From positions 1 through 21,229 of IMG/VR virus record IMGVR_UViG_3300025889_001127: 21,229 nt of DNA. One strand, 5' to 3'. A model generated the notes under the pieces. The model was not told the origin of the DNA. It was given only the letters and a program-made list of their open reading frames with translations, and made no database searches. A program made the translations under genes and the position numbers. This DNA is from a virus. Below, piece by piece: positions 17,900 through 20,124 of this stretch. Position 1 is the stretch's first letter. Each line of letters opens with the position of its first letter.

Positions 17900-18099
17900 C
17901 AATGTTTAGAGAGACTGCTGTGAGTGTACAACTTATCCTGCAAAATATCGAGCATAACAACATCCAATGCTTCTGTCAATAGTTTATATATCCTTTGTTT
18001 ATCCTCCATAAGATCATCTGATGCACCTATCATAAATTGGCCCTCTAGTGTTTCATAGACGACCACGCCTCTTGCAATATCTGCTCGGTCAACTTTCAA
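17899..18099 (-). CDS. Unknown small protein, TTG start coupled to polymerase stop
   Basis: A 66-residue protein, not recognised. It reads MKVDRADIARGVVVYETLEG, then FMIGASDDLMEDKQRIYKLL and TEALDVVMLDILQDKLY. The start is TTG at 18099-18097, which overlaps the polymerase stop (ATTGA), and no ribosome site is visible, so expression would depend on coupling. The first ATG is at residue 23. The amphipathic helix at the end suggests a small soluble helper of replication. The gene ends just before the SSB-like gene and contains that gene's ribosome site near its 3' end. Coding status is probable because the frame fills the gap neatly, but the start is uncertain. Confidence 0.5.
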   Translation of the reverse strand: MKVDRADIARGVVVYETLEGQFMIGASDDLMEDKQRIYKLLTEALDVVMLDILQDKLYTHSSLSKH

Positions 18100-19823
18100 T
18101 GTGTTTCTGCCCAGTTAAGTCCAACCTTGTATTCGCCCGTGAGTGGGCATCGTAACCCCAGAGCCGTGCCAGCCTCTGTGATCGCCTGTACTGCCATCTT
18201 ACCAGCCCTCTCAGCATCTTCCTGGGCCACTTCCATTTGCCATTCATCATGTACATTCGCAACAAAGTGCGCCTTTACTTTAAATTTCTTAAACTTTTCA
18301 TTGAGTATTATCAATGCCTGCTTCATTACTATCGCACCAGCACTCTGTAATAGCGTGTTAAGTGCTGCGTGTGAGGAACGAATGTGTAATCGCCGACCAT
18401 CCAAACCACCGATGTGTCCTTGCGAAGATGCCCTTTCAATCGCTGTTTTAAGTGATTTGAGCGCTGGTGTATTATCAAGAAAGGTGTCGATAAGCCGCTT
18501 ACCCTCTTTTTCCTTACCACCCACAATTGACCCGATCTTAGCTGGGCCTGCGCCGTAGAGTAGAGCGTAGATGAATGTCTTTGCTTGCGCCCGTTCTGCC
18601 AATCCTGCGGCATTTTGGTTCTTGGTATGAATATCACCCTCGCAGACTTCTTTAACATAAGATTCATCAATGTCCTTTCCTACATCTCTTTCATCATTAA
18701 GATAGTGCGCCAACATACGCAATTCCAACCCACTGGCATCAGCCCCGACTAGCCTATACCCATCATCAACAACCCAGCAGGCACGACACTCATGCCCATA
18801 AGGGCTGGATGATGACGGTATCTGGGCCATGTTAGGGCTGTGGTGTGTCATTCGCCCTGTGACAGCCCCGTTGGTGATGACCTTACCACGCACCCGTCCA
18901 TCGTCCTCAACAGCAGCAATCCATGATTTAACCTGAGCGTACCGTTTCTGAAGCATAAGGTACTCGGCAACAAGTTTAGCTTCTGGAAGATCAACTCCTG
19001 AAAGCGTGGTTTCATCGACAATCACCGATCCTTTCTCTGTTAGCTTTGTTGGCTTCCAGCCCAGTTCCTGCAATCGCTTCGCTATCTGCTGCCGTGAACC
19101 AGGGTTGAATACTTCAACATGATCCTTCAGTCGCTTTCCTGTTTTTTTGTGGAATCTTTCTGTTGTAACTGTTGGAAATACTCCTTGAAGCTGTTGTTCG
19201 ATTTCTCGCATTCGATCAGAAAACTCTGCCACAAGGCCCATGCATCTTGACAGGTCGAGTTTAAAGCCTCTTCGCTCTTGTTTGCATATAATTGCAGCAA
19301 CCTCATGTTCGATTTCAATTGCTCGTTCACCAAACCCGTAAACCGATTCTTCTCGTTTGAGTTCATGATAGACCCTTTCTAGTAAGTTAACATCCCTGAT
19401 GCAATACTTCGTCAACAACTTAATATGTGGCTTGTCAAACGGCAGTTTACTTTCCTTATCATAAGGAAGTCCGTTAATACGATGCCAAACTCTTTTGTAT
19501 TCAATTTTCTTTAAACTTAACTGTTTTCCGAATGCGTCTAAGCTGTGTCCTCCTTCTCTGTTCGGGTTCAGTAGCCTTGACATCACTAGGGTGTCTACGC
19601 ACTGGCTTAAGCGAATCTTCGTATGCCATAGCCTGTTCAGGTGATAGGCATCGAAACTTACGCCGTTGTGCATAACTAACTGACTTGTTCCCAGATACTC
19701 GCTCAACCCGTTTGCTTGAGTCCATACTTTGATTTCACCATCCTTCTTGGTAACACAACACCAAATTGTATCAAACTTAGTATTAGTCTCAATGTCAAGA
19801 AAGATCACTGATAGAGATCCCAT
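18096..19823 (-). CDS. DNA polymerase, family A (T7-like) with 3'-5' exonuclease domain
   Basis: A 575-residue replicative polymerase. The exonuclease domain shows D10-I-E12, N53...F57-D58 (MHNGVSFDAYHL) and Y140...D144 (KYCIRDV). The polymerase domain shows motif A with D362 (VGADASGLELRML), motif B R411, K415, Y419 and Y423-G424 (RAQAKTFIYALLYGAG), and motif C H525-D526-E527 (ANVHDEWQMEV). It is shorter than T7 gp5 (704 residues), with no obvious thioredoxin-binding insert. Y419 is at the position that in E. coli Pol I is F762. The annotated ATG at 19823 has AGGA directly against it; a GTG at 19808, giving a protein starting at VIFLDIE, is a possible alternative. The first bases overlap the preceding gene by 19. 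Confidence 0.93.
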   Translation of the reverse strand: MGSLSVIFLDIETNTKFDTIWCCVTKKDGEIKVWTQANGLSEYLGTSQLVMHNGVSFDAYHLNRLWHTKIRLSQCVDTLVMSRLLNPNREGGHSLDAFGKQLSLKKIEYKRVWHRINGLPYDKESKLPFDKPHIKLLTKYCIRDVNLLERVYHELKREESVYGFGERAIEIEHEVAAIICKQERRGFKLDLSRCMGLVAEFSDRMREIEQQLQGVFPTVTTERFHKKTGKRLKDHVEVFNPGSRQQIAKRLQELGWKPTKLTEKGSVIVDETTLSGVDLPEAKLVAEYLMLQKRYAQVKSWIAAVEDDGRVRGKVITNGAVTGRMTHHSPNMAQIPSSSSPYGHECRACWVVDDGYRLVGADASGLELRMLAHYLNDERDVGKDIDESYVKEVCEGDIHTKNQNAAGLAERAQAKTFIYALLYGAGPAKIGSIVGGKEKEGKRLIDTFLDNTPALKSLKTAIERASSQGHIGGLDGRRLHIRSSHAALNTLLQSAGAIVMKQALIILNEKFKKFKVKAHFVANVHDEWQMEVAQEDAERAGKMAVQAITEAGTALGLRCPLTGEYKVGLNWAETH

Positions 19824-20014
19824 TCCTGCTGGTTATAGCGATAAATCTTACCATCGTTACCCAGTCCTAAAATGTTACCATTCCTGTCACTGGTAATGCT
19901 TAGGACTGTGAAAGGCGCTGCATCTTCAACTCTAGCATCCTGTCCTTTTGTTGCTGGGGTGTCATTGATGACCAATTTTTTAGGTCGTCCTGGCTTCTTA
20001 GGCAAGTTTTGCAT
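19805..20014 (-). CDS. Small protein with AT-hook-like motif, overlapping a DUF1289 gene
   Basis: A 69-residue protein starting MQNLPKKPGRPKKLVINDTP. Residues 6-13 (KKPGRPKK) resemble an AT-hook, a short DNA minor-groove-binding motif. Residues 35-69 (FTVLSITSDRNGNILGLGND, then GKIYRYNQQEWDLYQ) form a compact beta-type unit with a clear protein-like pattern. The ATG at 20014 follows AAAGGA by four bases. The first 115 bases overlap the 3' half of the DUF1289 gene in another frame, and the last 19 bases overlap the polymerase start. Function is unknown; binding DNA beside the replication genes is possible. Confidence in coding is moderate because both frames read well. Confidence 0.55.
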   Translation of the reverse strand: MQNLPKKPGRPKKLVINDTPATKGQDARVEDAAPFTVLSITSDRNGNILGLGNDGKIYRYNQQEWDLYQ

Positions 20015-20124
20015 ATTTTCCTTTCCCAATCAAAATCACAAATGTTAACACATGGAGACACCTTTTCAGGCTCGTCTGGTAATTCTACCAGATAAGGCAC
20101 ACCAGAGACACGGGCTTTAACCAT
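19900..20124 (-). CDS. DUF1289 protein (four-cysteine domain)
   Basis: A 74-residue protein matching DUF1289: SPCVNICDFDWERKICKTCL, then RSQDDLKNWSSMTPQQQKDR. Cys25, Cys29, Cys38 and Cys41 give the usual CxxxC...CxxC pattern, likely to bind zinc, followed by the typical 'R..DDL..W..M....Q' helix. DUF1289 proteins are widespread small bacterial proteins of unknown role and are less common in phages. The ATG at 20124 overlaps the previous stop by one base (TAATG). The 3' half overlaps the AT-hook-like gene out of frame for 115 bases, and contains that gene's ribosome site. Family assignment is confident, role is unknown. Confidence 0.8.
   Translation of the reverse strand: MVKARVSGVPYLVELPDEPEKVSPCVNICDFDWERKICKTCLRSQDDLKNWSSMTPQQQKDRMLELKMQRLSQS
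20019..20024 (-). promoter_or_regulatory. Ribosome binding site embedded in the DUF1289 gene
   Basis: AAAGGA on the - strand, four bases before the ATG at 20014. It falls within codons for the WERK part of the DUF1289 protein and supports independent translation of the overlapping gene. Confidence 0.55.

Follow-up and report, generated by a model that had tools for sequence, protein, structure and literature searches.

The window analysed in this study, a 21,229-base virus record (IMGVR_UViG_3300025889_001127), carries on its minus strand two small genes that overlap in the same direction but in different frames. The upstream gene (19900..20124, minus strand) encodes a protein of 74 aa that the preliminary description had assigned to the DUF1289 family, and the PF06945 profile confirms this identity with an E-value of 2.2e-13 and a score of 50.3 bits, compared with a gathering cut-off of 27. 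The protein has four Cys in the arrangement C-x3-C ... C-x2-C; these residues (C25, C29, C38 and C41) are invariant in our alignment A1, and all four are invariant in alignment A6 as well. The downstream gene, which we call ORF2 (19805..20014, minus strand), encodes 69 aa from an ATG located within DUF1289 to a stop at 19805, and it is found in 12 further lineages. The two genes share 115 nt of the same strand (19900..20014), exactly the interval first described, and throughout this interval, which carries the dual-coding signal presented below, the third base of each DUF1289 codon is the first base of an ORF2 codon. As the comparison of lineages makes clear, the start codon of ORF2 and the codon for the first Cys of the DUF1289 CxxC are interlocked as A|TGC (20011..20014). 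An SD-like sequence, AAGGA (20019..20023), lies within DUF1289, 4 nt ahead of this ATG, and is the probable ribosome-binding site of ORF2.

Downstream of ORF2, and overlapping it by 19 nt, is the DNA polymerase A gene (18096..19823, minus strand; Pfam DNA_pol_A 3e-50), which was used as a control in our analysis. Overlaps between neighbouring genes in this arm measure 1, 4 and 19 nt, with a few that may be larger depending on the choice of start. The polymerase gene also contains, wholly nested in its +2 frame, an ORF of 74 aa (ORF3; 19501..19725, minus strand) that was recognised by the conservation of its open frame in related polymerases. With this conserved and fully nested ORF in the same arm, the DUF1289/ORF2 overlap is not the exception that it had been taken to be.

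Other features of the window concern its general organisation. The GC skew changes sign near position ~12000, where gene direction appears to turn from the plus to the minus strand. In addition, unrelated genes share a peptide of the form [KR]VSGVPYEVEL at their N-terminus or close to it. They include DUF1289 in the window (copy at ~20077-20124, minus strand), a coiled-coil gene and a ThyX-like one, besides others (L266, L273, L042, L069, L094, L163 and more). The codons that encode this peptide vary, and it looks like a protein module exchanged among genes.

Lineages that keep the overlapping pair

To collect relatives, viral contigs were searched by polymerase and by DUF1289, which yielded about 280 loci; alignments A2 and A3, when used for searching, yielded no usable pattern. 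The pair formed by DUF1289 and ORF2, in the same order, in the same relative frame and with an overlap of 91-118 nt, is present in 13 lineages: the window, L002, L274, the L003 group, L019, L021, the L007 group, L022, L026, L055, L255/L051, L257 and L029. In all of them, the ORF2 ATG takes its A from the end of one DUF1289 codon and its TG from a CxxC Cys codon (A|TGY); the Cys codon used is the first one in four lineages (the window, L002, L003 and L274) and the second one in the other nine. An SD-like match of 4-6 bases precedes this ATG in 13 of 13 lineages, which agrees with the earlier proposal that ORF2 has its own ribosome site inside DUF1289. The remaining alternative frame, +1, is shut by stops within the overlap region in every one of the 13.

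The pair is located either ahead of DNA polymerase or, in L022, L026, L029, L055, L257 and L274, ahead of a small MRCxSC gene that is followed by a primase-helicase, and since it is found in either of these two gene settings, it behaves as a cassette. For the nearest relative, L001, whose polymerase is 86% identical to that of the window, the contig holds only the end of ORF2, which is conserved (GKIYRYN..QQEWNIYQ). Compared by polymerase, the phage records nearest to the window belong to Pelagibacter and Roseobacter phages, at 38-47% identity. ORF2 was absent from all 50,697 phage records searched and had no match in Pfam or PHROGs, and DUF1289 relatives of the window type were not found among 84,980 prokaryote genomes. 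The preliminary description had named relatives with DUF1289 but no second frame, or a second frame free of purifying selection, as evidence that would count against its reading; relatives of the first kind do exist (L279 and others), while the 13 lineages listed above keep both the start and a constrained open frame.

Constraint on the second frame and the nature of the ORF2 tail

Because each ORF2 codon opens on the wobble base of a DUF1289 codon, constraint on ORF2 can be read in the third positions of DUF1289. Across the 13 lineages, only 14 of the 413 DUF1289 codons in the overlap end in T, compared with 5-11 of 24 further upstream in these DUF1289 genes and about 30% in neighbouring genes. 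At stop-prone third positions, T was observed at 0 of 149 sites, with 31.7 expected, and at third positions where T is harmless to ORF2 it was observed at 14 of 251, with 56.3 expected. Since T is depleted also where no stop would form, the bias opposes T-first codons and not stops alone, and this avoidance keeps the ORF2 tail hydrophilic. Control DUF1289 genes without a long ORF2 overlap showed normal T use at third positions (T3), with 8 of 33 in L279 and 4-12 of about 33 in 16 others.

To control for shared ancestry, we took the polymerase genes from ten of these lineages and divided them into 299 windows of 29 codons, leaving out the nested-ORF region. In these control windows, at most 4 of 10 lineages were open in the same alternative frame, compared with 10 of 10 for the DUF1289 overlap; the lowest observed/expected ratio of T3 was 0.67 among the control windows, compared with 0.17 in the overlap. 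This control was substituted for the product of the per-lineage open-frame probabilities, 7e-15, which is not a P value, the lineages being correlated. Windows of the polymerase that were open in all lineages numbered 29, and every one of them fell within the single region that holds ORF3. Third-base identity was 0.80 over the first 13 codons of the overlap and 0.46 over its remaining codons, compared with 0.57 in the polymerase. Substitutions counted within clades were few and carry no weight here. These results suggest that selection keeps both readings of the shared DNA in the 13 related lineages of these uncultured phages, in line with the overprinting that had been proposed for this locus.

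The structure of ORF2 was modelled with AlphaFold2 on an alignment of 25 ORF2 proteins. In the model, residues 1-36 have low confidence and no secondary structure, while residues 37-67 (19814..19906, minus strand) form a confident core of four beta strands, with a pLDDT of ~93 in residues 41-60. The overlap spans residues 1-38, and its border coincides with the predicted border of the fold; residues 1-36 are accordingly described here as a predicted disordered tail. A Foldseek search with this model gave no significant structural match, and several of the top matches are propeller proteins, all of them weak (E of at least 0.04).

As a null model for the tail, DUF1289 was resampled synonymously with the second frame held open. 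The first 13 residues of ORF2 contain 3.9 K/R, compared with 2.1 expected (z 6.8), and the similarity between lineages over residues 2-13 exceeds what resampling predicts (z 11.7 and 4.6). Past residue 14, the tail is near the resampling expectation and displays little sequence conservation, just openness and hydrophilicity. Measured against the polymerase windows, the excesses in the basic patch reach only the top 4-5%, and because 4-5% of those windows equal them, we grade the conservation of the patch (residues 2-13) as likely and not as proven; after allowing for shared ancestry, it is weaker than the open-frame signal.

From sequence and lineage comparison, the basic patch in the window reads KKPGRPKK (ORF2 residues 6-13; 19976..19999, minus strand), and ORF2 had earlier been called an AT-hook-like gene. 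A genuine AT-hook function of this arm, with binding to the minor groove of AT-rich DNA, would be compatible with dual coding but is very improbable: the segment PKKPGRPKK of the window does resemble a GRP core with basic flanks, but GRP is conserved in no other lineage, the residues at this site in relatives being KNKARPNQ, KNKRGSNK, KNRKRTDD or NRGRTKKL, and Pfam AT_hook gave no match at E<=1. We therefore rejected the AT-hook identity of the arm, whose GRP core occurs in the window only; as the alignments indicate, what is conserved appears to be a short generic basic patch and not the GRP core.

The reading that we favour, with a probability of roughly 0.87, is that DUF1289 and ORF2 are two separately translated genes, the arm of ORF2 having been overprinted on the older DUF1289 with an internal AAGGA/ATG start. 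Both would belong to the replication arm of a phage whose family-A DNA polymerase is T7-like. On a polycistronic message, ribosomes would begin DUF1289 at 20124 and ORF2, independently, at 20014, thus giving two proteins; we infer these two independent initiations from the start, the SD sequence and the selection on the second frame. Once initiated at the internal AAGGA/ATG, ORF2 would share its first 38 codons, in a different frame, with the sequence for the C-terminal half of DUF1289. The overprinted stretch would give this small beta protein a flexible basic arm, and its folded part would begin where DUF1289 stops. We suggest, tentatively, that this arm might contact nucleic acid or, within the replication machinery, an acidic partner; a role in replication is suggested because the gene adjoins either the polymerase or, together with the MRCxSC gene, the primase-helicase.

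A counterpoint to two proteins made in this way is the downstream ATG in L026 and L055, which could give a core-only ORF2 product. A rival reading holds that ORF2 is real but is translated from at or near its core, and that the openness upstream is a by-product of the composition and codon use of DUF1289. An ATG near the core is missing in most lineages, whereas the internal ATG with its SD sequence is present in 13 of 13, even if GTG/TTG or ATG codons do occur near the core in some of them. The near-neutral behaviour of the tail past residue 14 and the existence of relatives with a tail-less ORF2 (L010, L011 and others) would fit a core start, but T is avoided even where no stop results (14 compared with 56 expected), and its use is normal in DUF1289 genes without the long overlap; overall, we consider a core start very improbable. 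Least probable of all is that the second frame is kept for a reason of RNA or DNA, such as a regulatory structure or coupling, and not for its peptide, for although the conserved third bases in overlap codons 1-13 lie where ORF2 starts and could mark a nucleic-acid element, the signal is phased by codon, one frame is stop-free over 29-38 codons in all lineages, and T is depleted along the whole overlap while the later sequence varies (third-base identity of 0.46).

Other forms of ORF2 and an open frame within the polymerase gene

ORF2 was also found in forms that differ in the position of the basic tail. In type B (L052, L056, L069, L076, L079 and L148), DUF1289 lies upstream but the overlap is only 14 nt, and ORF2 begins with MARTKKVVEE, a similar basic patch that is almost wholly outside the overlap. 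In type D (L129, L163 and L165), a coiled-coil gene replaces DUF1289 upstream, the overlap is 46-49 nt, and ORF2 begins with MARGRKR, MAGRNKRK or MARRSKR. In type C (L010, L011, L020, L036, L050, L105 and many others), the N-terminal tail is missing and there is a C-terminal extension that ends in NKG[STR]KKR, encoded by about 110 nt overlapping the start of DNA polymerase. Within this overlap, T was observed at 0 of 101 stop-prone wobble sites, compared with 18.6 expected, based on 8 fairly closely related representatives.

In the polymerase tree, type C falls within type A (support 98) and type D beside A (87-89), and an AU test did not reject types A, C and D as one clade (p 0.34). The tail-less ORF2 was considered as the ancestral form and rejected, as type C falls inside the tailed forms with good support; judging from this placement, type C more likely lost its N-terminal tail. 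The simplest reading is that A, C and D had a tailed ancestor, that C lost the N-terminal tail and gained a basic C-terminal one, and that D swapped its upstream gene. A single origin of the long overlap at the root of the phage group is one possibility, and its shortening in a B-like sister group another. DUF1289 is the older of the two frames, because it is represented by a widespread Pfam family and ORF2 has no match in Pfam or PHROGs. The earlier idea of a new tail born inside an old gene is thus partly sustained: DUF1289 is older and the tail is predicted to be disordered, but the direction of change is no more than plausible, as a shortening of the type B kind fits too.

That the replication arm is a workshop of overprinting, in which ORF2 repeatedly gains a basic, disordered tail from DUF1289, from the unrelated coiled-coil gene or from polymerase, with ORF3 nested besides in most of these phages, has in our estimate an even chance of being correct. 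The same core protein is found with its tail overlapping one neighbour or another, located at the N- or the C-terminus, or overlapping almost nothing, which provides a clean natural experiment on the origin and persistence of overlapping genes, including matched controls in which the host gene is kept and the second frame is not.

ORF3 is located in the exonuclease domain of the polymerase. Of 85 non-redundant lineages, 67 have this frame open and 18 have it closed; by comparison, the most open 42-codon polymerase window outside the ORF3 region is open in 21 of 85, with a mean of 2%. An ATG formed by a codon-end A and TGG is present in 55 of the 67 open lineages and in 1 of the 18 closed ones, and an SD-like site upstream of the start in 55 of 67 and 4 of 18, respectively. 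In open lineages, third-base identity is 0.63 in codons 22-64, compared with 0.44-0.52 elsewhere in the gene, and T3 in the same codons is 0.16 in open and 0.37 in closed lineages, two groups that are partly defined by the openness of the frame itself. ORF3 had no Pfam match and no meaningful PHROGs match. ORF3 is probably a real, unannotated gene, and our analysis suggests that annotation rules which disallow long overlaps overlook genuine small genes in the replication modules of phages, with this one in the polymerase probably among them.

Elsewhere in the polymerase gene, the +1 frame of codons ~370-480 (18329-18670, minus strand) is nearly stop-free in the 85 lineages, with an observed/expected ratio of ~0.15-0.5 (0.15-0.17 in codons 400-480), and it has no fixed start among them. 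This scarcity of stops should be viewed with caution, as it may reflect either coding or composition.

Comparison with known overlapping genes

Previous work has documented terminal overlaps, which form when a start codon moves upstream or by overprinting, and has established that the younger product is disordered (PMC2268670, PMC3887535, PMC8227390). An overlap longer than 50 nt is present at least once in 61% of dsDNA virus genomes (PMC7017920). As in the known terminal overlaps of viruses and prokaryotes, the 3' end of DUF1289 encodes the 5' end of the next gene in another frame, and the younger product, here the ORF2 tail, is disordered by prediction. The DUF1289/ORF2 overlap differs from them in that 91-118 nt are kept in 13 diverged lineages with the start tied to a conserved Cys codon, and in that the basic tail of related ORF2 forms overlaps a different neighbour or lies at the opposite terminus, over polymerase. 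Relative to family PF06945, the DUF1289 of the window shares the profile match and the four Cys, but its C-terminal half carries a second reading frame. ORF3 is comparable to gene E of phiX174, nested in gene D (PMC8227390), as a small ORF lying wholly within an essential gene in another frame; the host gene is in this case a family-A DNA polymerase, and ORF3 is a putative gene known from its sequence. The class of overlap is therefore already known, and what is new is the family in which it occurs, its conservation in 13 lineages with a Cys-tied start, and the relocation of the tail among neighbouring genes.
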